DNA of 64,000 nucleotides, from positions 6,428,501 through 6,492,500 of the forward strand of contig NZ_CP036319.1 in assembly GCF_007752935.1 (NCBI RefSeq). Reading direction: 5' to 3'. Below the pieces are notes generated by a model, which was not told the origin of the DNA, made no database searches, and saw only the letters and a list, made by a program, of their open reading frames with translations. This stretch comes from Crateriforma conspicua. Its GTDB lineage: Bacteria > Planctomycetota > Planctomycetia > Pirellulales > Pirellulaceae. Positions within the stretch are counted from its first letter, which is position 1, and each line of letters begins with the position of its first letter. The translations under genes were made by a program, and so were the position numbers. Positions 8,469 through 57,676 of this stretch are shown in pieces.

Positions 8469-8670
8469 GGCACGGCGCCGCTGGCTGAAACGGAAAGAAG
8501 TCCGACACGATTCGGTTCCCAATAAGTCGGGGACCCAATCAACGCTTCAAAGATGCTAACGGATTCTTCGTCGCCTGATCGCCCTGCCCCGGCGGAATCG
8601 GGTCACACCGTGACAGAGCGCCGCTTCGTCTTGTCCACTTTCGATTGCCTTCGCACGCCGGTTTCGAAAT

Positions 8671-30285: not shown

Positions 30286-30313
30286 CCCATGGGCCGCGAT
30301 GTGGGTCAGTTCG
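30278..30313. terminator. Shared hairpin carrying both stop codons of convergent genes
   Basis: CGAACTGACCCA (30278-30289) and TGGGTCAGTTCG (30302-30313) are a perfect 12-bp inverted repeat with a 12-nt loop. The left arm contains the TGA of the pyrophosphatase gene (30283-30285); the right arm contains the TGA of the TolC-like gene on the other strand (30306-30308). There is no T-run, so termination activity is inferred from position. Confidence 0.6.
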
Positions 30314-32177
30314 CGGCGATCATCACATGGGTATCCTGCAGCAACGTGCCTGATTCGAATTGCACGTTCTTTGCCGCGATCGTGTACTCAGCCATGGACT
30401 GATAGTAACGTGTTTGCGATTCGCTTAATCGGCGTTGTGCATCCAACAGTTGCTCCAAACTGATCGGCAGTCCCGCTTCGCGATTGGCTTCCAGTGCGTC
30501 CAAAGCATCCTTGGCAGCCAAGTAACGGTTCAGGTTGGTTTCCGTTTGCACAAACGCGCGATCAGCCTCGGCGACACAGGCCACCAGATCGTGCAGCACC
30601 TGACGTTCCTGTTCCTTCAACAACGCTCGTTCGCGTGCGATGTTCAGCTTTGCATTGCGGACCGCAGCGTGGGCTTGGCGGAATCCCACCGGCATGCGGA
30701 ATTCCACGCCGGCTTCATACTCCTGATAGTCCATCGATCCAAATTCTTCGAACGCTGAATTGTCGCCAGCAAGTTGCTGTCCAAGACCTCGCAGGCGGTA
30801 GATGGTCACCAAATCCAGTTCGGGCAACAGGAAATTCTTCGCCGCCAACAACTCCATTTGTCGTCTGGCGACCAACAGACGCTGCTGTTGCAGTTCGGAC
30901 CGCAACCGAATCGCTTCCGCCGTCAGGGATTCGACATCGAAGATGATCGGTGCCGTCAAAGGGTCGTCCACGCAACGCAACAATTCTTCGTCGCCGATGG
31001 AAAGTCCGATCAGCAACCGAAGCCGTCGTTCGGCGGCCAACACACCGCCAATCCCGGCGAATGTCCCACCGCTGGTGGAATTATTGACTTGGGTCCGTTG
31101 AATCAGCTTTCCTGCAATCGCATCCTGATATTCGCTCAGGAATCGATAGTACTGTTCTCGGGCAAGTGCTTCGGCAGACCCACCGCGTCGGTTGGATGCC
31201 TTTTGCGCTTCATAGCTTCGCCACGTTTGCCGGCTGCGTTCCAGCGCGGCCCGTTTGGCATCCACGTCACGATAGGCAAACGCCAGATCCCAATAGGCGT
31301 TGATCACATTGCTGACGTAATCGCGTGCATCTTGGCGAAACTTCGCGGTGCTGATGTCGTTGTCCGCCTTGGCGATCAGAACGCCGTTGTACACGCCGGG
31401 AAGGGCCGCCGGTCCTGCGATCCGGTTGAAGGCCACGCCGGCACCCTGCAGCAGCGGTTGACGAAGCTCGGCATGCCACTGGGTCTGCCAGGCACTGGGC
31501 GTCAGGTTGCCCGTGGCATTGTTGGCGTCGTAGTCGGTGACGCTTCGCAAAGCAACTTCGGCACCGGTTGCCCCGCGTTTGGAAAGCTGAAAGACATAGT
31601 CGTGGGTGTCTTGCTTGAACGCATTGGCTCCCCCGCCGAAAAATCGGTTATTGAACCGTCGATCGTTGTTTTGCCATTTGCCAAACGCGTACAACTGGGC
31701 ATCAAAGGCGCTAAGGGCGGCTTCGATACTTTGCTGCGGATCAGTTTGCACCAACTGAAGCGTCTGATCGGACGCCAACTGCTCAGGCGCCCGTAGCACC
31801 GTGGCGTTCAGGTCACGCAGCACCTGCGTGTTGGTCATCGCGATTTGGATCACTTCCAACAAGGTCACATCGCGATAGGACGCCGATTCAAAAGCCTCCG
31901 GGTCCCGCAGCGTCATCGGCATCGGAGGTGGTTCGGGGTAGACCTCCGGCGGCGCACCGGCGTCGACGTCGCACATGATCGCATCCACGCACCGGGTGTC
32001 GTTGCCGATCGTTTCCGGAACACTGCGATAGGCCCGACAGCCCACGCCCGCGGTGATGACAGCGGCAACCACCAGCCACGCAATCCCCGGCCAGCCGGTG
32101 ACGACGAATCGGCGCTGTTGAAACCCCGCGGAAATGCCCCGGGATCGACGGTCGGATCGGACGATGAATCGCGTCAT
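30306..32177 (-). CDS. TolC-like outer-membrane efflux lipoprotein (module A)
   Basis: The protein has 623 residues from ATG 32177; an ATG at 32222 or 32258 would extend the N-terminus. A hydrophobic stretch (residues 31-46) ends in AGVGC with Cys47 as probable lipidation site. The rest shows two long helical repeats typical of outer-membrane efflux proteins: AELRQPLLQGAGVAFNRIAGP, TAKFRQDARDYVSNVINAYWDLAFAYRD, and later GVEFRMPVGFRQAHAAVRNAKL and QLLDAQRRLSESQTRYYQSMAEY. It probably forms a trimeric channel through the outer membrane. It is divergent from the module A adaptor genes with about 170 bp between, so a shared control region is likely. Confidence 0.88.
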   Translation of the reverse strand: MTRFIVRSDRRSRGISAGFQQRRFVVTGWPGIAWLVVAAVITAGVGCRAYRSVPETIGNDTRCVDAIMCDVDAGAPPEVYPEPPPMPMTLRDPEAFESASYRDVTLLEVIQIAMTNTQVLRDLNATVLRAPEQLASDQTLQLVQTDPQQSIEAALSAFDAQLYAFGKWQNNDRRFNNRFFGGGANAFKQDTHDYVFQLSKRGATGAEVALRSVTDYDANNATGNLTPSAWQTQWHAELRQPLLQGAGVAFNRIAGPAALPGVYNGVLIAKADNDISTAKFRQDARDYVSNVINAYWDLAFAYRDVDAKRAALERSRQTWRSYEAQKASNRRGGSAEALAREQYYRFLSEYQDAIAGKLIQRTQVNNSTSGGTFAGIGGVLAAERRLRLLIGLSIGDEELLRCVDDPLTAPIIFDVESLTAEAIRLRSELQQQRLLVARRQMELLAAKNFLLPELDLVTIYRLRGLGQQLAGDNSAFEEFGSMDYQEYEAGVEFRMPVGFRQAHAAVRNAKLNIARERALLKEQERQVLHDLVACVAEADRAFVQTETNLNRYLAAKDALDALEANREAGLPISLEQLLDAQRRLSESQTRYYQSMAEYTIAAKNVQFESGTLLQDTHVMIAAN

Positions 32178-32348
32178 GGTCTTTTGAATCGGACGCCGGC
32201 CAGGCCGGCTGATACGCATCATCGTTATTGTTCGTCCGACCGGTACGACCGTATCCAATCATTCCGTCACGAAACGCGCACGTGAAACGGATGTCGGCTG
32301 TTTCACGATTCACTGCGACTGGATTTCAAAGGCTGTTGGTTAGACTGG

Positions 32349-33734
32349 ATGTCGACCATGGCTCCGCAAAACGTCTCCCATACCGCCGGTCGCGACGCCG
32401 CCACGTCTCGCGACACTGCTACCTGGACCAATGTCGCCGCCAACGCGATCGACCAGCTGGACGTTGCTGCGCAGACCGCCACCAAGCTTCAACCATTCTT
32501 GGACAACGCACTCGGTGTTGTCGTCCAGACCGTCGGCGCGACCCGATGCACCTTGTCGCTGCTGGAACAAGGTGTCCCCCGCGTGCTGGCCAGTCGCCTC
32601 GCGTCCGATCCGTCACCGTCCGAAACTCCCGCGACGACCACCACCACGGCACGAATCCGACGGGCGGACGTTTCCCCAGATACCGCCTTGGAACTGATGG
32701 CACAATGGCCACAGGGGCACCGCTTCGCCGCAGCGTCGCAATCGACCATGACGGACGTTGATCAGCAGCAACCGGTCGACGAGTTTCTCACGTCAGTACT
32801 GCAACTGTGTCAAACCGTCTTTCTGAAAGACCAGTACGCGCGATACCGGACCTTCACGCCCACCGCATCTCCGGACGAATCATCGACCTCATCCGGCCGA
32901 AAACAAAAGATCCGGCTCGCCACCGTTTTGATCATCGCCTTGGGATTGATCGGCATCGTTCCGGTACCGTTCCACTTACCCGTTGACGGCGTGATTCGGG
33001 CCAAAAATCAGTTTGGTATCTATGCCCCGGTGTCTGGCAGGATCGCCGAGGTTGCGGTCACCGACGGCCAGAACGTCAAAGAAGGCCAAGTTTTGCTGGT
33101 GTTGGAAAATGCCGATCTGCAACTGCGCCGCAGCAACGTGATCGGTGAATTGGCAACCGCGGAAGCCGAGCTGACCAGTTTGCGGGCCGGATCCTCAAAG
33201 GCCTCCGGCGAATCCGATCCCAACCAAGGCCTTCGGCAATCGGTGCTGCGCACAAAAATCGATGCGCTGCGAAAGCAGGTCGAACTGGCCAATCAAATTC
33301 ACGAGACCTTGACGCTGCGTGCACCCATCACAGGACGCGTGAACAGCGATTCGACATGGAATCATCGTACCGGCCAGAACATCGCAGCGGGCCAGTGGTT
33401 CATGGACATCGTGTCCGATGACGAAGGTTACGTTGCGGTCATGTCGTTGCCCGAACGTCAGTTTGGATACCTCGGCGATGAAAGGATCCCCTGCGACTTT
33501 CGATTACGGTCCGCCCCCGAATCCAACCTATCGGGAACCGTGCAAACGGTCGCCGATACGGTGTCCCTTCGCCCCGACGGAACATCAGTCGTTGAGATGA
33601 CGATACCGGTGGATTCGAATAACGGCCTGCGAAACGGGGCCGAAATCGTTGGTCACATCACTCCGGGGCGGCGTCCGCTTGGATTTGTCCTTTTCCGGCC
33701 CATCATCGAAGCTTTCAGGAACCAGCGATGGTGA
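32349..33734 (+). CDS. Module A membrane-fusion protein with cytosolic N-terminal GAF-like region
   Basis: The 461-residue protein has three visible parts. Residues 1 to about 185 form a soluble region resembling a degenerate GAF sensor (FLDNALGVVVQTVGATRCTLSLLEQGVPRVLAS). One TM helix lies at about 186-206 (ATVLIIALGLIGIVPVPF). A HlyD-type barrel-sandwich and hairpin follow (VDGVIRAKNQFGIYAPVSGRIAEVAV, LTLRAPITGRVNS). The adaptor part would sit in the periplasm and the GAF-like part in the cytosol. It is the smaller counterpart of the module B protein at 55430-57478. The next gene overlaps its end by 7 bp. Confidence 0.8.
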   Translation: MSTMAPQNVSHTAGRDAATSRDTATWTNVAANAIDQLDVAAQTATKLQPFLDNALGVVVQTVGATRCTLSLLEQGVPRVLASRLASDPSPSETPATTTTTARIRRADVSPDTALELMAQWPQGHRFAAASQSTMTDVDQQQPVDEFLTSVLQLCQTVFLKDQYARYRTFTPTASPDESSTSSGRKQKIRLATVLIIALGLIGIVPVPFHLPVDGVIRAKNQFGIYAPVSGRIAEVAVTDGQNVKEGQVLLVLENADLQLRRSNVIGELATAEAELTSLRAGSSKASGESDPNQGLRQSVLRTKIDALRKQVELANQIHETLTLRAPITGRVNSDSTWNHRTGQNIAAGQWFMDIVSDDEGYVAVMSLPERQFGYLGDERIPCDFRLRSAPESNLSGTVQTVADTVSLRPDGTSVVEMTIPVDSNNGLRNGAEIVGHITPGRRPLGFVLFRPIIEAFRNQRW

Positions 33735-34819
33735 AGCGACTTTCGATCGTTACGTTGGGTATGTCCGCAGCCTGCGTTGTGCTGTCCCGCCCCTGTCTTG
33801 CCGAAGACGCACACCACCGTATCGGCGGTTTGGTCGTCGTCGCAGTGGATTCAGCAGCGGTGTCTTCATCGATCGAGGGGCGCGTGGAATCCGTTCAAGC
33901 CGTCGAAGGCGATGACGTTTCGCAGGATCAATGCGTCATTTCGCTGAACAGCTTCGAAGCCGATCTGCGTCATCGATTGGCGAAAAGTAACGTTCAAATT
34001 GCTGTTGAACGGTCGTCGAAGAATCGCCAAACCGCGGCCGCCGAAATCGCATTACGCGAAGCCAAGCAGTTATTGGATGAATTCCTTTCGACCCAAGAAA
34101 TCAATCAACGCAAAGCCGAAAACGATCTGTCGATCCGAGCCGCCGAAAAAGCAGAATCGGTCGCACAAAACGAACTCGAACGCGCCCGAAAGGCACGCGA
34201 GAACTTCTCCGCTTCGATATCTGAATCCGAGATTGATGCGTTGGAGTTGGCCTATCAAAACCGCCAATTGGAAACTCGACAAGCCCGATTTGAACACAGT
34301 CTGGCACAACTGGACGTTGCCGCAGGAAAACGTCGAATCGACACGCTGCAAACCCGCATCGATGCGGCAGAACAAGCACGCATCGAATCCGCATCGCTGG
34401 ATCAAATTCTGCGCTGGCAGGCCGAAATCGAACAGCATCAAGAAAAATTGGCATCGCTGCATCTGAATCAACACCGGCTGACATCTCCCATCACCGGCAC
34501 CTTGGTATCGGTAGCGGTCCATCCCGGTGATTGGATCGAGCAGGGGCAAACCGTGGCACGTGTCGTGAATTTGCAGCGTTTGCGGGCGGAAGGATTTATC
34601 CCTTTTGCAGATGTCGAATCACTTCGCCGAACTTCCAATCTGAACATCAAGATTCAAGTGGCAGGCGGCGAAACCGTCACCGTAAAACCAACACGCCAGT
34701 TCATTAGTCCGGAAATCGATCCGATCACCCAGGAAACACGTGTCTGGTTTGAATTCCCGAATCCGGAACGCAGGATCAAACCAGGCCTTTCGGCGATTCT
34801 GACGATGGGTGCGCCGTGA
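33728..34819 (+). CDS. Module A HlyD-family periplasmic adaptor
   Basis: The 363-residue exported protein begins with a signal peptide (MVKRLSIVTLGMSAACVVLSRPCLA-ED). The biotinyl-lipoyl-like half motif is SSSIEGRVESVQAVEGDDVSQDQ. A long helical hairpin (residues 80-230) rich in Glu, Gln and Lys follows, then LTSPITGTLVSVAVHPGDWIEQGQTVA and a beta-barrel. It resembles adaptors of tripartite efflux systems and the module B gene at 54391-55356. Its gene overlaps both neighbours, which supports one transcript with the M50 protein. It probably bridges inner and outer membrane partners. Confidence 0.85.
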   Translation: MVKRLSIVTLGMSAACVVLSRPCLAEDAHHRIGGLVVVAVDSAAVSSSIEGRVESVQAVEGDDVSQDQCVISLNSFEADLRHRLAKSNVQIAVERSSKNRQTAAAEIALREAKQLLDEFLSTQEINQRKAENDLSIRAAEKAESVAQNELERARKARENFSASISESEIDALELAYQNRQLETRQARFEHSLAQLDVAAGKRRIDTLQTRIDAAEQARIESASLDQILRWQAEIEQHQEKLASLHLNQHRLTSPITGTLVSVAVHPGDWIEQGQTVARVVNLQRLRAEGFIPFADVESLRRTSNLNIKIQVAGGETVTVKPTRQFISPEIDPITQETRVWFEFPNPERRIKPGLSAILTMGAP

Positions 34820-37026
34820 AAGTCCGTTCAATCTCTGCTAGGGCAACACAACTCTCCGGTGCATCCTTTCGTCTGAACCGAAAATTAGTTCATCGAAAGA
34901 TTCGATTCGGTCGGAAAACGACTTGGGTGGTCAAGCGAATCGCCGACGAGGCTTTTTTTTACTTTGATGAAGCGGAACACTGGATCCTTCAACAACTGAC
35001 AAGTCCACTGACCATCGGCCAATTGATGGACCGCTGTCGCAACAACATGCGGGACCAAGCTCCGTCACCTGGCGCACTTTCCGAGTTCGTCCGAATGCTG
35101 GCCGGCAACCATCTGTTGTTGGTCGGAAACGAAAGACCAATCGCAGACGATGTCGCATCGCCAAGTCGTCGTCATGATTACTCGCTTCATCCATTGGCGC
35201 TGCGTTTGCCTGGAATCGACGCCAGCCAATTTTTCGACTGGGCCGCCACATGCACGCGATTCATCCCCCGTTCCTTGGCCTTCGGCATCTACCTGACACT
35301 CTTGGCCATCGCAGGCGGTGTGGCATGGACCGACTTTCCCGCCCTGGTTACAGACATCCGCGGCGCAGCACAGCGCATGCCCACGCAGTGGGTTTGGTTC
35401 ATCATGGCCCTCGCGTTGGCAAAAGTGTGTCATGAAATTGCACACGCATCGGCTTGTCATTTGGCCGGCGGGCGATGTCGAAACGTCGGCGTCATGTTTC
35501 TGTTCGGTGTCCCCTGTTTGTACTGCGATGTCAGCGATGCTTGGCTAATGCCACAGCGATGGCATCGTGTTCTGGTGTCTGCCGCGGGCATGATGGCCGA
35601 ATGGTTCATCGCCGCCATCTGTGTGTTGATATGGTGGACCAGCCAACCGGGAATTCTTCACGACACCGCGTCATTGTTGATCATGGTTTGCACGGCCAGC
35701 ACGCTGGTTTTCAACGGCAATCCGCTGATGCGTTATGACGGGTATTTCATTTTGTCAGACCTTTGGGGAAAGCCAAACTTGGCTCAGCGATCAACGACCG
35801 CACTGCGTGAATTCGCATACCACCTATTTCACGGCAGTCGTGATGCATCGCTCGCTTGCGAACACGACGACGACGACACCAGCGTTGCCCTATTGGTCTA
35901 TGGACTTGCCAGCGTTTTGTACCGTGCGTTGGTCCTATCGTTCATCAGCTTGGTTGCGATGCGTTGGGTCAGCGGCACACCTTGGTTTTGGCCGGTAACA
36001 TTGCTGATCATCGCGACCGTTGTACGCGTGTTTTTCGCCAGGATCGGTAAACAAGACGATGCCGATACCGCACCAAATCGTTCATCGCATGCCGATCCCG
36101 AACAAACGCGACGCCCCATGATGGTCGGCGCCGCAATCGTGGCCCTGTCACTTGTGGTGCTGGTCGTTCCGTTGCCACGCACACTATCGGTCGACGGTGT
36201 CGTGCTTCCGGACAAGCACCAGGAGATCCGGCTGTCCGGATCAGGCCGGATCATTGATGCGGTCCGGCCCGGCATTGTGCTGGAACAAGATCAAACCATT
36301 CTGCAAGCTGACGATTGGGTCAATCGCTGGGAACTGCTGCGCTGCGACGCTGCCACGGATTCGATTCGGAATCATATCAACGCGATCCGGTTGATGCGAA
36401 CGCAGAATCCGGTCCTTTCACAACAGCTTCCGGCGTTGACTGAACAACTGCACGCGTCCATCACGCAATCGCAGACCCTGCAATCGCAATTGAAACTGAT
36501 GCATCTTCGGGCCGAAGCCGGCCAGATGGTTTTTGACACACAGAAAGTGATGCCTTCGCGGGATCAAAAACAACGACGTTGGATCGGGTCACCGTTTGCA
36601 TCCGAAAATCGTGGATGCGTTGTCCCTGCCGGGCAGAGTCTTGGCTTGGTGGGAGATGCAAACAAACGTATTGTCCAATTGGCACTTCCACAGGAACAGT
36701 TGGACCTGGTCCGTATCGGCCAGCACGTCAGAATTCCGCTATCAGGGCGAAGCGATCCTGCTGAGGGAACGATTCGTTCGATCGCACAAATGCCAAGTAC
36801 CGGTTCCGGGATGTCGCTTCGATCGGCGATCGATTCATTCAATGTCGATTTGCCGGCGGCTCAAGCACGGGCAGCAAACTCTTACCAGGTCAACGTAGAA
36901 CTGGATGCATCGATCTTCCATCGGCCGTTGCCGGTTCACCTGTCCGTGGTTGGCCGAATCGAATTACCCAAAGCCGCGATCTATCAACGTGTGTGGCGAT
37001 TCTTGATCGAAAACTTTTCGTATTGA
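34816..37026 (+). CDS. Module A PqqD-like / M50 peptidase / HlyD fusion membrane protein
   Basis: The 736-residue protein starts with GTG overlapping the previous stop by 4 bp. Residues 35-105 resemble a PqqD-like winged-helix domain (FYFDEAEHWILQQL, GALSEFVRMLAGNHLLLV). The M50 core has LAKVCHEIAHASACH, with HEIAH at 206-210, PCLYCDVSDAWLMP, and NGNPLMRYDGYFILSDL carrying the conserved Asp. Several TM helices surround these. A further TM at about 435-455 precedes a periplasmic HlyD-like arm (SVDGVVLPDKHQEIRLSGSGRIIDAV). All M50 catalytic residues appear intact, so intramembrane or juxtamembrane proteolysis is possible. The paralogue at 52070-54307 has the same order. Confidence 0.85.
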   Translation: MKVRSISARATQLSGASFRLNRKLVHRKIRFGRKTTWVVKRIADEAFFYFDEAEHWILQQLTSPLTIGQLMDRCRNNMRDQAPSPGALSEFVRMLAGNHLLLVGNERPIADDVASPSRRHDYSLHPLALRLPGIDASQFFDWAATCTRFIPRSLAFGIYLTLLAIAGGVAWTDFPALVTDIRGAAQRMPTQWVWFIMALALAKVCHEIAHASACHLAGGRCRNVGVMFLFGVPCLYCDVSDAWLMPQRWHRVLVSAAGMMAEWFIAAICVLIWWTSQPGILHDTASLLIMVCTASTLVFNGNPLMRYDGYFILSDLWGKPNLAQRSTTALREFAYHLFHGSRDASLACEHDDDDTSVALLVYGLASVLYRALVLSFISLVAMRWVSGTPWFWPVTLLIIATVVRVFFARIGKQDDADTAPNRSSHADPEQTRRPMMVGAAIVALSLVVLVVPLPRTLSVDGVVLPDKHQEIRLSGSGRIIDAVRPGIVLEQDQTILQADDWVNRWELLRCDAATDSIRNHINAIRLMRTQNPVLSQQLPALTEQLHASITQSQTLQSQLKLMHLRAEAGQMVFDTQKVMPSRDQKQRRWIGSPFASENRGCVVPAGQSLGLVGDANKRIVQLALPQEQLDLVRIGQHVRIPLSGRSDPAEGTIRSIAQMPSTGSGMSLRSAIDSFNVDLPAAQARAANSYQVNVELDASIFHRPLPVHLSVVGRIELPKAAIYQRVWRFLIENFSY

Positions 37027-37065
37027 TCGTGGGTTCGCATGACGCAAAGCCGCCACTTCGAACGA

Positions 37066-40000
37066 TTAAGGATTCATGGACCAAACCGAAATCCGTCCTT
37101 CGCGATCCGCGGTCAAAACGTGTTTCTGATCTGGCGAAATGTCGACATCAGTCAACGGTTGGTTGTGCCGGCGAATCTCGATCAACTCACGCCCCTCGGT
37201 GGACGTCTGGTCCTTGGCGACGGCATCCAACATCGGGTCCCAAATCCGTAATGATTCATCATCACTGACCGACAACAGACGTAAATTGGCGTCTTCGTTG
37301 CCGTGAAAAACGACGCCTTCGACAGATTCGGCGTGCCCACGAAACACAATGGGCACACGCCACTGGACGTCATTGATGCCTGGAATCGGCCACATTCGCA
37401 CCAACCGGTCGGCTCCTCCGCAAGCGACCCAACGCCCGTCGGCCGAGAACCGACCACACAAAACGGCGCCCGCTTGTGGTATGTCCATCAACACGTCCGT
37501 CTTCTTCGCAACGATGTCATGGACCACCACTTCGCCGCGATCCGTTGTGACCAACAAACGGCGACCATCGACCGAGAAAGTTAACGACAGGGGGCGGCCC
37601 AACGTTACCGACCATTGCCCCGCATCAATCAATTCCAAAGTCTCATCGCTTTCACGATACTTCCACTGACGCACCCGACCGTCATCACCACCGGTCACCA
37701 GAACGTCTGGTGACGATGCGGGTCCGAACTGTAGACAGCGAACGGCACCCTCGTGCGGCGATTCCAACTTTGCCACCGCGCGGCCCGTTTCCACATCCCA
37801 GATTTTCACGCTGCGACTTGCGGTCGCCACACGAGTGGAATCGGCGGAAAAAGCGACGTCGGTGATGGCACCGTGCGAACGGTAACTGCGCATATGCTGA
37901 TATGTGGTGCAGTCCCACAGAAACGCCGCGCTTCCGTGCAGCGTTAGAAGCTGATTGGGCGATATCGGCAAGACGGCCCCCGGATCGGGCAATCGCATGG
38001 GCAACTCGAATCGTCCACGACGCTGGGCAAACGTCGCGTTGTCCACCAACGACTTGTCGTCATCGATGCGTGCTGTCTGCACATGCCACAGGTCAATCTG
38101 CGAAGGCTCATCGCCGCGGGGCGTGAACAATACCGCCAACCGACCGTCCGAATCGTCAAAGCAGGCATCGACAATTCCTGGTCGTCCACCGTTGACCGAT
38201 TTTGCATCTCGCGGTATTTCCAATCGCGTCAGCATCTGTGACGCTCCGGTGACCGAATCCACAAGCACTGCTTGATGCACGACGGAATCGACCTTGGCCA
38301 ATTCCGTCACCACCGCCAAGAATCGTTTATCCGGTGATAACGACAATCCCACCGCGGCACCGTCTTGAGCGTAGGTCTGCACCACTTGCCGGCTTTCCAA
38401 ATCCCAGCGACTGACGACGCCATCATCGGTTGCGATCCAGGCCGATGATCCGTTGACTGCAAACGCGATGGCGTGAATCCGAAGCCCCAAACGATCGTCC
38501 CAAGGTTCACCGATTGGTTTTCCGGATTCGCAATCCCACTGAATTAGCCGACCCGCGCGATCGCCGGTCAATAAGGTTTTGCCATCATCCGATATCGCTA
38601 CCGCCGAAACGGATTCTTGGTGCCCGCCCAATCGGTGCATCACGCGAGGATAACTGCTCTGCCCCGGCGGTATTTCCCAAATCAGCGCACGATCATTCTT
38701 GGAACTGGACGCGGTCACCATTCGACGTCCGTCACGGGAAACAGCGACCACATTTCCGATGCCCGTTCCCGACGCGGTGGTCAGTTCTGTTCCCTTTTTC
38801 AAATCCCACAACCGAACCATCGCATCGGCGGCACCGACAACCAACCGCCCATACCGACGATCCAATGCCATGGCCATCGCACGAAAATCCGTACCTTCGT
38901 CAAGCCGAAGTGTCGCCGCCAGCGCGGCGTCATCCGATTCTGAAGCGGTTCCCATCGTACGATCGTCGGTGACCCAAAGATCGTTTTGCTGATCGTAAGA
39001 AAGCAACCTTGCGGTACGATCACGCCCCGCTGTCACAATCCGATCCGAAGCCGGAGAAAACCGTGCCGCCCAGATGGCATCGTCCTGCACCTGGATCAAA
39101 CCGGATGATCCGGTTTGATTTTCTGATTCACCATCAGCATTACTTGGCTTCTTTGATACCTGACTGACCAAAGTCCTAAACGCACGGTATGACCGCACGG
39201 ATGCTTGATCGTCATCCGAATCAGGCATGGGTTCCACGTCGGGCTTTCGCAGATCCCAGAGCCGAACCGTCATGTCCTTGGATGCAGAAATCACCATTCC
39301 CTGCCCCTCGTCCCAGTATTCCGCCGCAACCACCGCACCGCCATGGCCACGGAACGACCGCTGAAACTGTCCGACGGGTGGTTGATCGACGCCGGATGCC
39401 TGGACCCGCCAAAGCTTGATCAAATAGTCATCACCGCTGGTCACCAAATGCTGACCGTCGTCGGAAAAAGAAACCGACAAGACTTTGGAGTCATGTGCCG
39501 CGTCTTGCGCGCGGTCTTCGCGACCGGAACCAACGTCGGGATCGACCAAACGAGCCGACGGCACAACGGACTTGGAACTTGACTGTTTGGGCACCGAAGC
39601 CATGTCCCCCGCATTGCCTGCGGTCTCTGGTGCAAGCCCCTGCACGGCCCGTTGGATTTCAGAAACGAGGTCCGATTGCGCAACGGCTTTCGGGTCCCAA
39701 AGAAACACGACACCTGACTGGTCGCCAGACGCCACCAAAGATCCGTCACGCGTCAGGCAAACGTCCGTCACGGGTGATTCATGCTGATCATATACCCCCA
39801 CACGATCGAACGAGGTTCCATCATTATCAATCGACCACAATACGATTCGTCCCATCGTCTGATCGGCGATGGCGGCGGCAACCAAAACATCGGATTCCCG
39901 CGCCACGGCATCAAACGCCACGACCGGCGCCAAGTGCCATAGGACCGACGTTTGATCTTCGGACGAACCGGATCGCACGCGAATCGTTCGGTCAGTCCCC

Positions 40001-43000
40001 GCGGACAGGATCCAGTCGTCACGACGATCGGGGAACGACAACAACATGGATTCCGTCACCCGTCCGTTGTGGCTGAGCATCGATCCAGACGATATTGGCC
40101 GCTCCTGCGATCGATCCATCAGATCGACGGTTCCCAGTTCTGTTCCCACTAGCAGTCGATTCCCGTCCGCCGCGATCGCCACGTCGCTAGCAACATCTCC
40201 TTGGGACGTTGCAAAAGCCGGCTGCATGCGTAGGCGTTGTCCCTGGCGATTCAAAGTCACGACGCGACCGTCGGCCAGCGCGACGGCAAAATCACCCGCG
40301 TTCTTGGACATCGATAGGTCTTTCGCCGGCGATTCCAGTTGCACGGTTTCGGCCGCCTGTTGGGTCACATCGGACAACCACTGCAGCTCGATGGGCAACT
40401 CGCCCGTTTTCCCTTCCCGCCGCCGCTTTTCGATCAATTCATCAACGATGCGACGAGCCTCATCAAATTCATTCTGGTCCACACGTGCTTTGGCAAGGCC
40501 GATCTGAGATCGATAGTATTCTTGTTCGACCAAACGCCGGGCAAGCTCCGTTTCCCTGCGAGCCTTGACCGCTTCATTCCTGGCAACGACCGCTTTGTTC
40601 TTTTCTTCGACGGCGATCTTTTTCTGCTCTTCTTCGTTCTGCTTTGCCTTCAAGGCTTCGTCCCGAGCCGTTTCCGCATCACCACGCGCAATCGCCTCTT
40701 TGTCCTTTGCCTTTTCCGCTTGTTCGCGTGCTTCAATGGCTTCTTGTCGTGCTGCCTCTGCCTCCACTCTCTTCGTTTCGGCGACTTGGGCATTGGACCG
40801 AGCCTCTTCCGCGTTAGCTCGAGCCAACTCTTCGTTTTCCCTGGCCAAGTTCGCGTTGTGTTCGGCCAAGCCTCGTTGCTGGTCGATGAAGTAGATCGCC
40901 GCCGCCCCACCGACCAGGATGAACGCCAGCATCGCTGCCGCAGCCTTTTTCAACAGCGTCAACCGAGACGCATTCAGCTCTCGTTCACGAATGCCATCTT
41001 TCAGCCGCTTGATCAAATCGACGTGATCGGGATCGTTCTCACTGAGTAGCGATAACCCCAAATCGAAGTCGCGGTTGCGATAGGCCGCTTCGGCATGTTC
41101 GACGCGTGCCTGAGACAATCCCAACTTGGCTTGCCGGTTGCCTTCCCACAAAACCAACGCTTCTTCGAAACCGAATTCAGCCCTCGCGAACGACGAATAG
41201 TCCTCGGTCTGCCCTGCACGCTGCAAATCATCTTTGGCACGTTTGGCCAAGGTGATGCTTTCGGCGTGATCGCGGTATTGTCGAATCGCGTCCTGAAAAC
41301 TGGGCACATCGGGATATCGATCGGCCGGATTGGTGGCCATCGCCTTCAATGCGATGTCCATCAGTTCGCCACGATAACGATCATCAAAAGGCCGAATTTC
41401 ATTCGACGCGACCGCTCGTAAACAAAGGCTGACGTTCGCAGCATTGTGGGGCGGATTACCGGTGATGATCATGAACAGCGTCGCACCAAGCAGATAGATA
41501 TCTGCTGCCGGCCCGATGCGATCGACCGGCCCGACCGCCAATTCAGGCGCCATGAACGACGGCGTCCCGCCCAGGCCGTGCGATGGCGTGATCGAATCCA
41601 GTTTTTCGAACTCGGGCTTCGCCAACGCCAAGCCCCAGTCCATCACCAACACAACACCGAAGTCGCCCAACATGATGTTTTCGGGCTTGATGTCACGGTG
41701 CACCACGCCCCGAGTGTGCGCGAAACCGATTGCGTCGGATGTCCGCAACAAGATCTCAAGATTCTCATCCAACGTCTTTTCGGCAATCACGTCGGACCAG
41801 GGCGTCCCGACGACCCGCTTCATCGCGTAAAAGACAGTGTTGTCACCGGTGACAGCGACATCATGGATGGGAACGATGTTCGGGTGATCCAAATCACCGG
41901 TCACAACGGCTTCGGACAAAAACTGTTGCCGACGTGATTCCTCGACGTGTTGCAGTTTGCCTTGTTTGCGAAGCTTGGATCGCTTGGCCTTGTCCAACGG
42001 GCGGATGACTTTGACGGCAATCAACCGGTCCAGCGAACCTTGCCGAGCGACGAACACATTGCCCATCCCACCCTTGCCCAGAAGGCGGATCAAACGATAG
42101 TCCGACAACTGGTCATCATTTTGCATGGGCGTCACCATGTGACGCTTGTGCAAAGCCAATTTTTGCTCACTGATGGACCGGTCGATGGCCGGCTTCATCT
42201 TGGTGGGCGCGTCGTCGGCGACGAACTCGGCGGAGATTTGGCCCCAAAAATCTTGCTCCTCATCGCTCAACTGACGTGGGCTGATCGTCTGCCCGAGATT
42301 GTCGTCCTCTAAGACACTCGGTTGCCCATCCGCATCGTCCGCCGGATCCACAACCAACGAATCCAGCGCCACATCCATGGTGTGAACATCATCGGGATCC
42401 TGAAACTCCATCGTGGACTGGTCAGAACGCGAATCGTCCACGCCCAGTTCAAAGTCCACGGTTCCCGAATGCGGATCACCCTTTGAATCCGGTGCGTCCA
42501 ATTCCGCGGTCGCGTCGCTGGACAAATCCACCGTTCGATTTTCGTCACTTGGATCGACGAGGCCGGAAGCCATGACGGTCTCCGAACCGGCAGTTTCATC
42601 CAACCGTTTGGTCGCGTCTAAATCCACCGTTTCATCAATGCGTGTGGTGGCATCCAGATCGACCGTTTCATCCAACCGCTTGGTGGCGTTTGGATCCGAT
42701 TCATCCGTCGAATCCGTAGCCGCGGGGACGACATCGACGGTTTCATCAATACGCCGCGTCGCGCTCAAATCGGTGGTTTCATCCAACGCCTCCATCGGAA
42801 CCGACAGCTTCGCTGGCGTGAAATCGACGGTTTCATCGATTTGTTTGGTGGCGTCTAGATCGTCTTCTTTGCTGGACGATTCGGCGTCCGCGTCGGGATC
42901 AATTCCCACCGTTTCATCCAAACGTGTGGTCGCATCCAAATCAACGGTTTCATCCAACTTCGCTGTGCGATCCAGATCGTTTGCCGACGAATCGCCGGTC

Positions 43001-43212
43001 GCGCGTTCGCCGGGCTTCGCACTGCCAGATCCCGTCGCTGCAACATCCGGTGTGGGAACGTCTTGGTCATCAGGACCGCAATGGCCATCGCCGTCCGGTT
43101 GGTTCAGATCAACGGTTTCATCCAATGACTCCGGACGTCGACTGGGATCATCGTCTTGTCGACCCGGTTCCCTATGCGGATCGTTCGGTGATCGTTGACC
43201 GTCGCGAGACAT
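37066..43212 (-). CDS. Giant Ser/Thr protein kinase with DETVD repeats, coiled coil and WD40 propellers
   Basis: The protein has 2048 residues. Residues 1-330 are acidic with about ten copies of a DETVDL-like motif. The kinase domain is at about 370-640 with GKGGMGNVF (P-loop), AVKVI (Lys), HRDIKPENIML (catalytic loop), DWG in place of DFG and GTPSFMAPE, as usual in planctomycete kinases. A TM helix at about 750-772 is followed by a coiled coil of Ala/Glu/Arg repeats to about 900, then WD40 repeats to the end, for example DGKTLLTGDRAGRLIQWD and FSADSTRVATASRSVKIWD. The topology predicts a cytosolic kinase and a periplasmic or external WD40 sensor. It lies between module A and the giant surface protein, so it may signal about this system. 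Confidence 0.92.
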   Translation of the reverse strand: MSRDGQRSPNDPHREPGRQDDDPSRRPESLDETVDLNQPDGDGHCGPDDQDVPTPDVAATGSGSAKPGERATGDSSANDLDRTAKLDETVDLDATTRLDETVGIDPDADAESSSKEDDLDATKQIDETVDFTPAKLSVPMEALDETTDLSATRRIDETVDVVPAATDSTDESDPNATKRLDETVDLDATTRIDETVDLDATKRLDETAGSETVMASGLVDPSDENRTVDLSSDATAELDAPDSKGDPHSGTVDFELGVDDSRSDQSTMEFQDPDDVHTMDVALDSLVVDPADDADGQPSVLEDDNLGQTISPRQLSDEEQDFWGQISAEFVADDAPTKMKPAIDRSISEQKLALHKRHMVTPMQNDDQLSDYRLIRLLGKGGMGNVFVARQGSLDRLIAVKVIRPLDKAKRSKLRKQGKLQHVEESRRQQFLSEAVVTGDLDHPNIVPIHDVAVTGDNTVFYAMKRVVGTPWSDVIAEKTLDENLEILLRTSDAIGFAHTRGVVHRDIKPENIMLGDFGVVLVMDWGLALAKPEFEKLDSITPSHGLGGTPSFMAPELAVGPVDRIGPAADIYLLGATLFMIITGNPPHNAANVSLCLRAVASNEIRPFDDRYRGELMDIALKAMATNPADRYPDVPSFQDAIRQYRDHAESITLAKRAKDDLQRAGQTEDYSSFARAEFGFEEALVLWEGNRQAKLGLSQARVEHAEAAYRNRDFDLGLSLLSENDPDHVDLIKRLKDGIRERELNASRLTLLKKAAAAMLAFILVGGAAAIYFIDQQRGLAEHNANLARENEELARANAEEARSNAQVAETKRVEAEAARQEAIEAREQAEKAKDKEAIARGDAETARDEALKAKQNEEEQKKIAVEEKNKAVVARNEAVKARRETELARRLVEQEYYRSQIGLAKARVDQNEFDEARRIVDELIEKRRREGKTGELPIELQWLSDVTQQAAETVQLESPAKDLSMSKNAGDFAVALADGRVVTLNRQGQRLRMQPAFATSQGDVASDVAIAADGNRLLVGTELGTVDLMDRSQERPISSGSMLSHNGRVTESMLLSFPDRRDDWILSAGTDRTIRVRSGSSEDQTSVLWHLAPVVAFDAVARESDVLVAAAIADQTMGRIVLWSIDNDGTSFDRVGVYDQHESPVTDVCLTRDGSLVASGDQSGVVFLWDPKAVAQSDLVSEIQRAVQGLAPETAGNAGDMASVPKQSSSKSVVPSARLVDPDVGSGREDRAQDAAHDSKVLSVSFSDDGQHLVTSGDDYLIKLWRVQASGVDQPPVGQFQRSFRGHGGAVVAAEYWDEGQGMVISASKDMTVRLWDLRKPDVEPMPDSDDDQASVRSYRAFRTLVSQVSKKPSNADGESENQTGSSGLIQVQDDAIWAARFSPASDRIVTAGRDRTARLLSYDQQNDLWVTDDRTMGTASESDDAALAATLRLDEGTDFRAMAMALDRRYGRLVVGAADAMVRLWDLKKGTELTTASGTGIGNVVAVSRDGRRMVTASSSKNDRALIWEIPPGQSSYPRVMHRLGGHQESVSAVAISDDGKTLLTGDRAGRLIQWDCESGKPIGEPWDDRLGLRIHAIAFAVNGSSAWIATDDGVVSRWDLESRQVVQTYAQDGAAVGLSLSPDKRFLAVVTELAKVDSVVHQAVLVDSVTGASQMLTRLEIPRDAKSVNGGRPGIVDACFDDSDGRLAVLFTPRGDEPSQIDLWHVQTARIDDDKSLVDNATFAQRRGRFELPMRLPDPGAVLPISPNQLLTLHGSAAFLWDCTTYQHMRSYRSHGAITDVAFSADSTRVATASRSVKIWDVETGRAVAKLESPHEGAVRCLQFGPASSPDVLVTGGDDGRVRQWKYRESDETLELIDAGQWSVTLGRPLSLTFSVDGRRLLVTTDRGEVVVHDIVAKKTDVLMDIPQAGAVLCGRFSADGRWVACGGADRLVRMWPIPGINDVQWRVPIVFRGHAESVEGVVFHGNEDANLRLLSVSDDESLRIWDPMLDAVAKDQTSTEGRELIEIRRHNQPLTDVDISPDQKHVLTADREGRISVWSMNP

Positions 43213-43272
43213 TTAGAGCTAACCTAAACAAACAATTGTTCGATGAATTTGGTACGGGTTCATGTGATCGCA

Positions 43273-46200
43273 TCATGAGGTGCCGGGGCTTTGATCCCCA
43301 AACCCTGCGGCGATACGACGCAAAAAGCGAGATGAATGAGAAAAGGGTTGAACCGGGGCATCATCCGGCGGCAAAGATTCAGCATCCTCGTCTTCATCCG
43401 GCCAAAATGAATCGACCGGCGGCTGATCCACACCGGCATCACCCGATTCACGGTCTTCGCTTGGGCCAGCCGATGCCTCCTGGGAATTCGATATTTCGTC
43501 CCCGTTTCCATCCGAACCGTCGGTGGCATCCAGCGGCGTCAGCTTCAGGGTACCGCCATCCAGATCGTCGTTCAAAATCACCGGACGACCGCCACGCAAA
43601 TCGACTCGCAGAATGGAACGTTCGTCGTCGTCACCGGCAACGTATTCAATCTCATAAGCTCCATCGGGAAGCTGCCGGAACAATCGCTGAAGTTTTTCGA
43701 AATCCAAGATGTCGTCGGGCAAGCGAATCGGTTCGATCAAATCCGGCGACGCGGGATCTGGCGAAAGTGTTCGCAATTGAAAGTATTCATCACTGATCGA
43801 AACGTTCAACGATGTGCTTTCGGACGTTTGAAAGCTGGCATCTGTGACAAAAGTGGTTTCCGTCTGTCGCACAATGGTGGGCAATTCCACCGGTTCGGGA
43901 ATCACATCACGAACGGGAAAAAAGGCGACCGGGACGTCGACCTGTGGGATCACGAAAAACGCCCTTCCGTTTTCTAAAATCGGCCCCGCCGGGTCCAACG
44001 TCAACGGATTGTCGGTCGATGTGACCAGTCGGCCATCGACTGGAAGCGGCAGGTCGCTGCCTTGAAAAATGCGATCCGCCTGGATCTGTATCGACTCGTG
44101 GTGTGACACCGAAAAACGAACCGCCAAAGGATCGGTTGCACTTTGCCGACCATTCAATGTTGAATTCAGAATGTCCGATTCAAGATAAACATGACTCACC
44201 TGCGCCGTCGCACCGTCACCGGGAAGATTATCGACGCGCTGAAAACGATCCGCCGGAGCCCCCCAGTCGATCATCAACGTCAAACCGGTTTCGCCTTGGG
44301 TTCCGATGTCAACGCTTAGCGTTCCCTCCGCATCATTCAAGTTCGCTTGAGACAGAATATTGGTGCTGACGGAATCGAAATCATAAAACGCGTCCGCTAC
44401 GACTCCCTCACCCGGATAGGGCGTGAACTGGCGTGCAATCCCCACACCCTGCCCCGTCATGATTTCGAAATCATCGCCCAGCGAAACGGTGTCCGCTTCG
44501 ACATCGACCGCTCCGCCGGTTGTTGCATCGGCATGAAGTTGAACCGAATCACCCACAATCCAGCTGTCACCCATCCGCAACCGAATCGTGCCCGACGTTC
44601 CGCCTGCAACGATCTCCGGATCCGCTTTTCGATCGTTGCCGTCATTGGTCGCGTCAAAGTCGTCGATCACGATGTCGTCGGCGGCTCGAATGTCGATGCC
44701 TCCGTTGCCGGTTCGAATGACGCCCGAATCGTCACGAGAATCACCAGACGCCAAGCGAACGGAATCGGTTTCGGCGATCAGCAAATCTCCAGGATTGGTT
44801 CCATCGACCGATGCAACCAGATCGGCGACAGCGGTAGTTAGGGCAATTGACTCGGCCTGATCCGCGACATCATTGCCCGCAACCACCACCAAATCATCGG
44901 CGGCGACCGAAGCCGTTTGTGAATCAACGACACCCACGACGGGATCGATCGACAACACGTCATCCGCGGACACCAGCCGAACATCGGCGTTTAAGTCGGC
45001 TTGAACCCGACCGACCAAAAGATCGCTTCCAGTCCCGGTGGTTTCCAAGCGGATGTCGCGACTGTCGGCTGAACCATCGGCACCGTCTGATCCGAATTGA
45101 TTTTCCGAGTGAACCAGTATGGCTTCCATCGTGCCCGCCGAGCGCACATCAATCCCGCCATCGACGGTCTGCAAACGTTGGATACGAATAGAATTAAGTT
45201 CGTCGATCGCCACTGCGCCGGAGGAGGACACGAAGCCATCAAGCGTCTGCACCTGCGTCTCAATTGCGTCCCCATCGCCAATCCCTGAATGTGACCGGAT
45301 GACAACGCCGCCCGATTCGGCCACAAGGTCAATGCTGCTGTCGCCTCCGTCTTGAATGGCACCGTCAGTGCTTGTCACTTGTATGGCATCATTTTGGCCT
45401 GAACCGCTGACCACGGTGCCCAACATAATGTCCGAACTGGCCGTCAACCGGACGACATCCTCAGTGGCGATGACAGCCGCGCCATCCTCCATGCGAATTT
45501 CCCCCAAACTTCCGGGGGCGTCGCCCGCGGTCAGCCGTACTTGCCCCGGTGATTGCACGTTTGCACCGGCGGGCAAAACAAGGCTCGCTTGATGATTCGC
45601 CACATCGATCCCACCGGATGCGCTGACGTCCACCAATCGAACATCACCCGCCCCGACGCGATCAACACGGATCGAGCCTCCGTCGGCTCGCAGTTGCGAA
45701 ACTTCCGCATCGGCCGATCCTGACCAATCCAATGCGATGTCACCATCGGTCGTGACTGCATCCAAGGTTCGCAAGTCGGCCAGACGCATCGGCGTGACGC
45801 CGCCAATGCCCTCGTCGGCACGCAAAATCAATCCGTCCGCGTCGATTCGGGCGTCGGCACCGTCAATCGCATCGATACGTTGCGCCGAAAGTTCGACATT
45901 CTCGCCAGCGTCCACCGCCCCCACCTGCAATGCGACATCGCTGTGTAGCTGAATCGAGCGACCGGCAACAAGCCGGTCCACAACGTCGATTTGGTTGCCG
46001 GGCTGCGAAAAATCAATCGCCCCGTCGGCATACACCGACAAGCGATTCATGTCGATCGTCTGACCGCTCGCCTGCTGAACATCACCTGCAATGGGTTGCG
46101 TCGGTTCGCCAATGATCAGTGTTTCGGCCTGCATCGTTCCCAGACGGACGGTGGTTGCATTTCCCAACACAATTCCGGCGGACTTGAGATGCACCCCCGT

Positions 46201-47580
46201 CAGGTCCAACGGATCTGACGACGCGTCGACCAAGATCTGATCCACAGCATTGATCGCTCCATCGGTCCCCGATACCGGCCCCGTCACGGTGACGTTCGTT
46301 GCCGTCAAAGATGAATCCAACAGAGTTTCGGTGGCCTGCAGCTGGACGTCATCCGCAACGCTGACATCACCAGTCAAAATGATTTGATTGCCAGCCACGA
46401 CATCCAAATCACCTTGCACCACCAACGAATGTTCGATGCGAACAGAATCCCCCGAGCGAATCAACAAAGAATCATCGCCGCCGGTGGACGCCAGCTCCGA
46501 TTCAATGATTAGATCCTGGTCGGTTACCAAACTGACATCACCTTCGAACGTCGTCGGCACCGACAGCACAAGATCCTCCGACGTCTGCAACTGCAGGTCG
46601 ATCAATTCCATCTGGCCCGCGTTGACGGTGAAGTGATTCGCGGTGATGTCGGAACGAATCGAAACAGTGGAATCAGGCGAATCAATCGCCAGGCTTCCGC
46701 TGACGTCGATCGTATCGCCCGACAATTGAATTTGATTGCCACCACGAATGGTCACATCGTGCAAGGGTTCCCCCACGGATCGGTCCACATCCCCGAGGTT
46801 CAGATCGGCTGTGTTTCCCAGTTGAAACGTCAATGAACTTTCGACGTTTGTCGCGGCGGTCGATACACCGGTTAGTTCCACCAGTCCTTGCGTCGCTTGA
46901 ACGGTCACGTCTCCCGAGACGACCAACATTCCATCGATTCGAATCGATCCGTTGCCCAAATCCACCAACGTCGGCTGATCGGGCTGGCCCACATCCGTTC
47001 GCCCCGTGATCGTCAGACGATCACCTTGGGCGTCAAAGGCCCCCGAGCGTGGCGCCAAAACGACTTGCTCCGAATCGATCGTCACTTCGTCGGCGGAACT
47101 GCCGTTGACGACGGGCGATTCCAAAACCACACGATCCCGGCCGTCGCCGCCCGTCACGTCGATGTCCAATCCGTCGATCAAAGGTGTCACCGCGACATCA
47201 TCACCGGCTCCCAGGTCGATTCGCAACGATCCAGCAGTGATCTCAGACTTCTGGATCGAATCAGCGTAGACCGGGTTACCCACGCCATCGGTCCCAACTT
47301 GGATCGGAATCAACGATGCATCAGCATCGAACAGACGCACATCATCCGTCGCGGCATGCTGGACTTGAACAAAGTCACCACCGGCGCCTCCTTGGATCAC
47401 CAATTCACCCAAGGCGGTCAATTCCGCCGTCGCGTTCAGAACCAACCGACGTTCCAGCATTCGGACCCGTGGTTTCCACCCCGCCATCTCTGCACTCGGG
47501 TGTCTCGCGGCATCGGCCACCACCCGCCGGCGTCGCCACCACTTCGCCAAGCGTCCCGGATTCCGTCGGCTTGGTTGCAT
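43273..47580 (-). CDS. Giant beta-rich surface protein with LEPR-xLL-like leader
   Basis: The 1435-residue protein starts with a basic N-terminus (RRNPGRLAKWWRRRR). At about residues 42-50 it has MLERRLVLNA, resembling the LEPR-xLL leader found on planctomycete and related large exported proteins. From there on it is almost entirely Asp/Val/Ser/Thr-rich short beta repeats with IR/DG/GDDV patterns (QIQLSGDTIDVSGSLAI, VVQGDLDVVAGNQIILTGDV), suggesting a parallel beta-helix or filamentous haemagglutinin-like fold. The C-terminus is charged and ends in a basic helix. No enzymatic domain was seen. It is 60 bp upstream of the kinase gene on the same strand. It might be cargo of module A; this is inference. 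Confidence 0.82.
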   Translation of the reverse strand: MQPSRRNPGRLAKWWRRRRVVADAARHPSAEMAGWKPRVRMLERRLVLNATAELTALGELVIQGGAGGDFVQVQHAATDDVRLFDADASLIPIQVGTDGVGNPVYADSIQKSEITAGSLRIDLGAGDDVAVTPLIDGLDIDVTGGDGRDRVVLESPVVNGSSADEVTIDSEQVVLAPRSGAFDAQGDRLTITGRTDVGQPDQPTLVDLGNGSIRIDGMLVVSGDVTVQATQGLVELTGVSTAATNVESSLTFQLGNTADLNLGDVDRSVGEPLHDVTIRGGNQIQLSGDTIDVSGSLAIDSPDSTVSIRSDITANHFTVNAGQMELIDLQLQTSEDLVLSVPTTFEGDVSLVTDQDLIIESELASTGGDDSLLIRSGDSVRIEHSLVVQGDLDVVAGNQIILTGDVSVADDVQLQATETLLDSSLTATNVTVTGPVSGTDGAINAVDQILVDASSDPLDLTGVHLKSAGIVLGNATTVRLGTMQAETLIIGEPTQPIAGDVQQASGQTIDMNRLSVYADGAIDFSQPGNQIDVVDRLVAGRSIQLHSDVALQVGAVDAGENVELSAQRIDAIDGADARIDADGLILRADEGIGGVTPMRLADLRTLDAVTTDGDIALDWSGSADAEVSQLRADGGSIRVDRVGAGDVRLVDVSASGGIDVANHQASLVLPAGANVQSPGQVRLTAGDAPGSLGEIRMEDGAAVIATEDVVRLTASSDIMLGTVVSGSGQNDAIQVTSTDGAIQDGGDSSIDLVAESGGVVIRSHSGIGDGDAIETQVQTLDGFVSSSGAVAIDELNSIRIQRLQTVDGGIDVRSAGTMEAILVHSENQFGSDGADGSADSRDIRLETTGTGSDLLVGRVQADLNADVRLVSADDVLSIDPVVGVVDSQTASVAADDLVVVAGNDVADQAESIALTTAVADLVASVDGTNPGDLLIAETDSVRLASGDSRDDSGVIRTGNGGIDIRAADDIVIDDFDATNDGNDRKADPEIVAGGTSGTIRLRMGDSWIVGDSVQLHADATTGGAVDVEADTVSLGDDFEIMTGQGVGIARQFTPYPGEGVVADAFYDFDSVSTNILSQANLNDAEGTLSVDIGTQGETGLTLMIDWGAPADRFQRVDNLPGDGATAQVSHVYLESDILNSTLNGRQSATDPLAVRFSVSHHESIQIQADRIFQGSDLPLPVDGRLVTSTDNPLTLDPAGPILENGRAFFVIPQVDVPVAFFPVRDVIPEPVELPTIVRQTETTFVTDASFQTSESTSLNVSISDEYFQLRTLSPDPASPDLIEPIRLPDDILDFEKLQRLFRQLPDGAYEIEYVAGDDDERSILRVDLRGGRPVILNDDLDGGTLKLTPLDATDGSDGNGDEISNSQEASAGPSEDRESGDAGVDQPPVDSFWPDEDEDAESLPPDDAPVQPFSHSSRFLRRIAAGFGDQSPGTS

Positions 47581-54307: not shown

Positions 54308-54390
54308 GACAAATTACGACAGAGAAAAGGATGCAGGGGGTTGCTCAAACTAGAAAACGAACGGAGCAGTGACGATTCTTAGATCACCAA

Positions 54391-55356: not shown

Positions 55357-55429
55357 ATCGCTGGTAAAGATAAGGGCGGCGTGGATGAAGGTAGGGGGTG
55401 GAGGCGTGACTGGTGATCGACAGCGTTGA

Positions 55430-57478: not shown

Positions 57479-57584
57479 GGCTGTGCGAACCCGAAAACAG
57501 GGAGTGGTGGGAAGCTGGTTGGGGGACCGATGTCGTCGATTTTGTGACGGTACTGAAACGCGGGCGAAATTGCCACGTTGACAA

Positions 57585-57611
57585 TTTATACAACTTGTAT
57601 AAGTATGTAAA
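57585..57611 (-). promoter_or_regulatory. Promoter of the module B operon
   Basis: On the minus strand TTTACA (57606-57611) and TATAAA (57585-57590) are separated by 15 bp, a little short. Start of transcription would be near 57578, 100 bp before the module B GAF/HlyD gene. The spacer is a palindromic site. A TTGACA also exists on the plus strand (57578-57583), so divergent promoters may overlap. Confidence 0.5.
57586..57602. promoter_or_regulatory. 17-bp palindromic operator candidate
   Basis: TTATACAACTTGTATAA is a perfect 8-bp inverted repeat around one C. It overlaps the -10 and spacer of the module B promoter, where a dimeric repressor would block RNA polymerase. The sequence is AT-rich in a GC-rich context and resembles MarR or GntR sites only in general style. 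No matching regulator gene is next to it. Confidence 0.6.
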
Positions 57612-57676
57612 GAGTTGGCTTTTTGGAATTTTTCAGCCCCGCCCGGCTGACCGCCTGAATCCTTGGCAGCGTCCCG

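Follow-up and report, generated by a model that had tools for sequence, protein, structure and literature searches.

Two proposed export modules around a giant protein

We analysed a stretch of 64,000 nucleotides (the window; G000:C1:6428501-6492500) from the complete 7.18-Mb genome of the planctomycete Crateriforma conspicua. The window encodes a giant protein, P0003, and a Ser/Thr kinase with WD40 propellers, P0002 (STK-WD40), which are located between two gene modules. Each module contains HlyD-family adaptors and a fusion protein, P0001 in module 1 and P0008 in module 2, that joins a PqqD/RRE-like domain, an M50 protease and a HlyD domain. We propose that modules of this kind probably form a secretion system for very large leader-bearing proteins, one that is free of ATP-binding cassette (ABC) transporters, powered by a SecA paralog, gated by the RRE and M50 parts and built on HlyD and TolC. 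P0003, P0002 and P0001 are all present as open frames where an earlier interpretation of this DNA, made from its letters only (the sequence-only reading), had placed them.

Module 1 is wider than that reading had described, with a divergent TolC gene (P0006) and the genes for two HlyD proteins (P0004 and P0005) preceding P0001. Module 2 (GAF-HlyD / HlyD / PqqD-M50-HlyD; 52070-57748, minus strand) lies across the giant from it. HlyD-family sequence in the window comprises P0004, P0005, P0009 and P0010, together with the C-termini of P0001 and P0008 (Table 1). P0004 has a single transmembrane segment (residues 186-213) and no GAF match in Pfam, while its paralog P0010 has GAF matches. The real start of P0010 probably lies downstream of its first TTG. 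P0005 has a Sec-like N-terminus, with an N-terminal hydrophobicity of 2.25.

The fusion proteins combine three recognizable parts. In P0001, the M50 domain carries HEIAH and NGNPLMRYDGY and is followed by a C-terminal HlyD domain. HExxH and NxNPxxRxDG are invariant in the P0001 alignment, and H212, E213, H216, N307, N309, P310 and D315 are invariant in 40 M50 sequences from many phyla. The M50 part therefore has what defines a site-2 protease, namely HExxH and a second metal-ligand motif with Asp, both in membrane helices. The PqqD-like N-terminus of P0001 has no Pfam match of its own but is backed by alignment to P0008, which has a weak PqqD match (E 0.027; 15.2 bits, short of the Pfam gathering score of 23.4). 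An AlphaFold model of P0008 built with 39 relatives has a mean predicted local distance difference test score (pLDDT) of 83, with block values mostly of 84-93 over residues 21-100, where the predicted fold follows the RRE pattern of three strands and then helices. Structural comparison with VIA-align matched residues 16-103 to leader-bound TbiB1 (5v1v; Z 11.5, 84 of 88 residues aligned, root-mean-square deviation 2.6), to leader-bound TfuB1 (6jx3; Z 10.8) and to part of a substrate-bound heterocyclase (Z 8.7); a sequence profile reaches TfuB1 at E 0.039. Residues ~194-387 of the model have the site-2 protease fold (RseP, Z 9.5; mjS2P, Z 8.6), and residues 453-737 have the HlyD fold (MacA-type adaptors, Z 17). 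The idea that a PqqD-like leader-binding domain is fused to the M50 protease thus gains support from the predicted fold of P0008 and its alignment to P0001. The fold is that of TbiB1 and TfuB1. Unlike in those proteins, however, it is here fused to a membrane protease-exporter, and it would presumably bind a giant protein's leader rather than a peptide's.

P0003 has no Pfam or NCBIfam match, and a single-sequence model of its C-terminal 555 residues was unusable (pLDDT 36). To look for its leader we used a position-specific scoring matrix (PSSM) built from 42 leader sequences, which themselves score 22.7 to 38.4 bits; a simple pattern had been dropped because it missed several real leaders. 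The matrix finds LERRLVLNA at residues 42-50 with 18.1 bits, and the runner-up site in P0003 scores 0.9. Orthologs from four other genera have, at the corresponding position, LEKRIVLDA, LEPRIVLNA, LEPRIVLDA and LEPRLVLNA, and in each of them a conserved stretch comes after the leader core. Because these counterparts sit in the same place, we regard the P0003 motif as real and conserved rather than a chance match, although the curated leader models PF07595 and NF012209 both fail to find P0003 at E<=1. We found no Sec-like hydrophobic stretch in P0003, so the leader of LEPR-xLL type without a classic signal peptide that had been ascribed to the giant is borne out.

This leader resembles two described sequences: the export motif RRLxxExLExRxLLA of surface proteins in Rhodopirellula baltica (Studholme et al. 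2004, as cited in PMC8567305), covered by model PF07595, and the LEPR-XLL domain, covered by NF012209. Both models, Planc_extracel PF07595 (Studholme et al. 2004) and LEPR-8K NF012209, describe the same leader, that of very large proteins with a basic stretch and then LExRxLLA or LEPRxLLSA at their N-terminus. They describe the tag only, and the literature examined names no export machinery for it. Searches with the two models found ~35 leader proteins in the C. conspicua genome, of up to 8,497 residues and spread over the chromosome. None of 33 leader-protein N-termini examined has a Sec-type hydrophobic core (h-region); the residues before the motif include a median of 8 basic and 1 acidic.

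Table 1. Features of the two modules and of the genes between them (window coordinates).
Feature	Position	Strand	Evidence or remark
P0006, TolC-family outer membrane factor	30306..32258	-	divergent from module 1; Pfam OEP 1.1e-19
P0004, HlyD-family adaptor, GAF-HlyD type, module 1	32349..33734	+	Pfam HlyD_3 7.9e-18; HlyDg profile
P0005, HlyD-family periplasmic adaptor, module 1	33728..34819	+	Pfam HlyD_3 1e-15
P0001, PqqD/RRE-like + M50 protease + HlyD fusion, module 1	34816..37026	+	Pfam HlyD_3 2.2e-7, M50 1.7e-5
P0002, Ser/Thr kinase with WD40 propellers	37066..43212	-	kinase match 1e-27
P0003, giant leader-bearing protein, presumed cargo	43273..47580	-	1435 aa
Leader core LERRLVLNA, P0003 residues 42-50	47431..47457	-	PSSM 18.1 bits
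P0008, second PqqD/RRE-like + M50 + HlyD fusion, module 2	52070..54307	-	Pfam; predicted fold
RRE (PqqD-like) domain of P0008, residues 16-103	53999..54262	-	VIA-align Z 11.5 to TbiB1 with leader
P0009, HlyD-family periplasmic adaptor, module 2	54391..55356	-	Pfam HlyD_3 3.1e-14
P0010, GAF-GAF-HlyD adaptor, module 2	55430..57748	-	Pfam GAF 2.8e-6, Biotin_lipoyl_2 5.7e-8

Leaders and modules travel together

The sequence-only reading predicted that leader proteins should correlate with M50/HlyD modules across genomes, and that leaders common in genomes without modules would speak against it. We surveyed 294 Planctomycetota genomes, each at least 90% complete and many of them metagenome-assembled genomes (MAGs), calling leaders with NF012209 and PF07595 and modules with a profile of six PqqD-M50-HlyD proteins. 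Leader and module are strongly co-distributed: 62 genomes have both, 8 the leader only, 44 the module only and 180 neither (p=7e-26, on genomes that are not independent and with a module scan that scored three M50 candidates per genome, which makes per-genome module counts and some absences unreliable). Most of the 8 leader-only genomes have weak leader matches. The pattern that would have spoken against the sequence-only reading, leaders frequent where modules are missing, was thus looked for and not seen. Outside the window's class the corresponding counts are 35/8/21/178 (p=4e-20), and counted by family they are 16/2/12/30 (p=2e-5). As a control we took the C39 peptidase found in bacteriocin and type I ABC exporters, which is not associated with the leader either overall (31/39/78/146, p=0.16) or when restricted to ABC-sized frames (p=0.35).

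Leader giants also adjoin modules directly; examples come from Planctomycetota, Verrucomicrobiota, Pseudomonadota, Fibrobacter and other groups. When named genomes were scanned with an alignment of 12 module sequences, 80 loci from many phyla emerged, and a leader giant lies in the flanks of 11 of these. Of these genomes, 23 from outside Planctomycetota were selected by record title; the leader (NF012209) is present in 19 of them, and in 9 of the 23 a leader open reading frame (ORF) overlaps a module locus, where 0.32 would be expected (p=8e-11). The leader giants of Neptuniibacter caesariensis MED92 (7,974 residues), Pseudomonas sp. MMS21 TM103 (8,684 residues) and a Sulfuritalea MAG (14,390 residues) lie just upstream of GAF-HlyD, and that of a Fibrobacter succinogenes MAG (6,177 residues) lies just upstream of the M50 gene. 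Within Planctomycetota, eight loci (L129, L130, L131, L132, L134, L135, L136 and L163) have the operon-like order giant, GAF-HlyD, M50 on one strand; at L046 in the C. conspicua genome, and at L100 and L149, giant and module face away from each other. The proposed pairing of a giant with an M50 module therefore recurs across phyla, but the particular pairing seen in this window is limited to its genus.

The module-adjacent giants carry DUF4347, cadherin, Ig, laminin-G, Golvesin_C, fibronectin III, subtilase or amidase domains. Proteomics published in 2021 is consistent with a surface location of leader giants: in Tuwongella immobilis the motif is on 8 of the 10 longest proteins, and the study detected 20 of the 52 leader proteins, the Tris/SDS fraction being the sole source of 8, and considers leader proteins to be likely surface proteins (PMC8567305).

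Could the leader be read by something else, either an ABC-driven type I system or Sec with an unusual signal, while the modules serve ribosomally synthesized and post-translationally modified peptides (RiPPs)? RRE domains are familiar chiefly from RiPP systems, and five module-adjacent giants carry 14-18 RTX-type GGxGxD repeats in their C-terminal parts, a feature typical of ABC-driven type I secretion. Moreover, the nearest curated families of the M50 part are daptide HExxH (NF041824) and YydH/LiaK (NF058609), which share with it a membrane M50 protease and homology over residues 30-412, the RRE-like part included. However, the scores of 149.6 bits (P0001 with daptide_HExxH, its closest NCBIfam) and 184.6 bits are far under the cut-offs of both families, which for daptide HExxH is 300 bits, and the assignment of P0001 and P0008 as true daptide or YydH proteases was rejected for this reason. 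The window proteins also differ in being fused to HlyD, and the modules neighbour giants, HlyD/TolC and SecA rather than small peptides. No maturase was noticed in the mapped loci, which were not scanned for one systematically. Furthermore, C39-ABC genes do not track the leader, an exporter-sized ABC transporter ORF is present in none of the 160 module loci to which that search applies, and the leaders lack an h-region. We therefore consider this explanation improbable.

Two side observations concern module copies. G007 has 13 matches to the PqqD-M50-HlyD profile, some of which are separate HlyD genes. A sulfatase related to one in the window (6984-8522) adjoins another M50 module of C. conspicua (L048, 4883000-4902500), which possibly reflects no more than the abundance of sulfatases in planctomycetes.

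A truncated SecA paralog as the likely motor

In most of the cross-phylum loci the gene after M50 encodes a SecA paralog of ~665 residues, a component that lay outside the sequence-only reading. It matches SecA_DEAD (PF07517, 2.5e-95) and SecA_PP_bind (PF01043, 2.3e-24), scores below the NCBIfam SecA/SecA2 equivalog cut-offs and has an invariant Walker A motif, TGEGKT. The paralog is found in 70 of the 80 cross-phylum loci, 27 of 80 planctomycete loci and none of 40 control regions. Among the best matches listed for planctomycetes, the short SecA frame occurs with a module in 64 of 66 cases and the long housekeeping frame without one in 61 of 71. The truncated paralog is the likely motor of the system. 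The C. conspicua copy sits at another module (L045, G000:C1:2378661-2380664). A second SecA-like frame, of 778 residues, lies away from the M50 modules (G000:C1:3277263-3279188) and is either housekeeping or accessory. The presence of several module copies and few SecA paralogs in the family suggests exchangeable gate units that share a motor.

Type I secretion (HlyB/HlyD/TolC, and LapBCE for giant RTX adhesins) is the obvious comparison. It shares with the modules HlyD-family adaptors and a TolC-family factor (here P0006, with others at further loci), as well as the type of cargo, which is very large, sometimes RTX-bearing and without a Sec signal. The module system differs in that its address tag is N-terminal and in that it pairs an RRE-M50-HlyD protein with a SecA paralog. 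Because an ABC motor was sought in the modules and not found, we do not regard the system as a member of type I secretion; an unlinked ABC gene might still lie elsewhere in the genome. Accessory SecA2 systems likewise devote an extra SecA-family ATPase to particular, often large, surface proteins, but the module paralog breaks off at roughly residue 610 of B. subtilis SecA, and its companions, in bacteria with two membranes, are HlyD/TolC and an M50 protease. We found no published description of such a secretion system, or of a site-2 protease serving giant proteins, in the literature searched, which excludes preprints and most subscription papers; the system is apparently undescribed.

Weighing the proposed export route

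Several observations weigh against the proposed system. First, linkage in C. conspicua is loose, because its six module copies and ~35 leader genes are mostly apart, and neither of the two modules in the window includes a SecA gene. Second, a leader was found in 11 of 72 unselected planctomycete module regions and in 2 of 40 control regions, a difference that is only suggestive (p=0.09). This test is weak, given how often the control genomes also have leaders. Giant length alone is not specific: 9 of the 40 control regions also have an ORF of at least 1300 aa. Nine of the matrix seeds come from module-adjacent loci, so the leader-selected loci L129-L136 were left out of these statistics; the unselected regions still include one seed, L100. 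Third, 44 module-positive genomes lack the leader by both curated models. The leader perhaps differs in these genomes, but a search near modules for the Gemmata-type motif LxLExLExRxxP, which is the leader form of Tuwongella (PMC8567305), found none. Fourth, no M50/HlyD module was detected near the P0003 orthologs of the four other genera, in the stretches fetched on either side. Finally, the SecA paralog is without the C-terminal region (the end of the helical scaffold, the two-helix finger and the tail), since its match stops at residue 609, and no dedicated inner-membrane channel gene was seen.

The missing channel gene raises the question of whether export takes two steps, with the SecA paralog working with ordinary SecYEG to reach the periplasm and HlyD/TolC then carrying the protein outward. 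The paralog aligns over residues 13-609 of B. subtilis SecA (of 783-844) with its ATPase motifs intact, and accessory SecA2 proteins work through SecYEG. On the other hand, it stops before the part that holds the two-helix finger, and the leaders are unlike Sec signals. A one-step conduit suits the fusion of HlyD to an RRE-bearing membrane protein better, and we regard the two-step route as possible but unlikely.

A separate question is whether P0003 belongs to the kinase alone, lies close to the two M50 modules by accident and perhaps is not exported through them. Homologs of P0003 occur in 7 of the 79 genomes searched, C. conspicua included. The whole region is kept in the window's genus. 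In four other genera the P0003 ortholog is directly followed by an STK-WD40 homolog with 36-39% identity over ~1,950 residues, its full length, and outside the genus the pair stands without a module nearby. The stable partner of P0003 is thus the STK-WD40 kinase, and any use of an M50 module must be in trans. Kinase pairing and export are compatible, however, and modules are present elsewhere in all six other genomes with a P0003 homolog. Because the orthologs keep a LEPR-type leader and all six genomes have modules, export in trans is the simplest reading of P0003, and we find it doubtful that the giant is tied to the kinase and nothing else. Its leader probably acts in trans, since orthologs outside the genus keep leader and kinase but not the M50 module, and the leader makes P0003 a likely cargo of the module system. 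The sequence-only reading had grouped the kinase into a possible cargo system; we rejected it as an exporter part because its conserved neighbour is the giant and not the module. From their conserved adjacency, P0003 may be functionally tied to the kinase, possibly acting as a partner of this receptor at the surface.

Other features of this neighbourhood deserve mention. Residues 29-203 of P0002 contain LDETVD/IDETVD and LDATTR units about ten times, repeats that could be multisite phosphorylation or phosphothreonine-binding sites, and P0003 might be a partner of the WD40 part. A 236-residue protein at 48034-48744, with a hydrophobic N-terminal stretch, a Cys/His-rich sequence towards its C-terminus and no Pfam family, has homologs that adjoin the giant/kinase pair in two other genera (G007 and G013). 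Between the two modules, a PQQ-repeat/BamB-like propeller protein with N-terminal membrane helices (49589-51391) is kept within the genus and has one weak relative in one other genome.

How might such a system work? The sequence-only reading had the leader bound by the PqqD-like part, cut by M50 and the protein moved through HlyD/TolC, a hypothesis that we consider partly supported. We suggest that, in the cytosol, the RRE domain within the RRE-M50-HlyD protein would bind the basic, non-hydrophobic leader ending in LExRxLLSA, and that the truncated SecA paralog would then use ATP to thread the unfolded chain. A single step without any ABC transporter would take the chain across the HlyD components (the M50 fusion, GAF-HlyD and HlyD) and TolC. 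The M50 site-2 protease would remove the leader, and the protein would fold outside the cell. P0003 may use this system in trans while being functionally paired with the STK-WD40 kinase.

We lean, by a small measure, towards regarding this as a separate class of secretion system, in which a truncated SecA replaces the type I ABC motor and an RRE-site-2 protease-HlyD protein reads and removes the leader. The proposed class would span several phyla, at least Planctomycetota, Verrucomicrobiota, Pseudomonadota, Fibrobacterota, Omnitrophota and Desulfobacterota, with cargo of up to ~14,000 residues. If true, this would name the machinery for the planctomycete giant-protein leader reported in 2004 and account for the export, in many phyla, of proteins that rank among the longest known. 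It would also extend the known secretion systems by one in which a SecA motor and TolC exit tubes are combined with a RiPP-type leader reader and an intramembrane protease.

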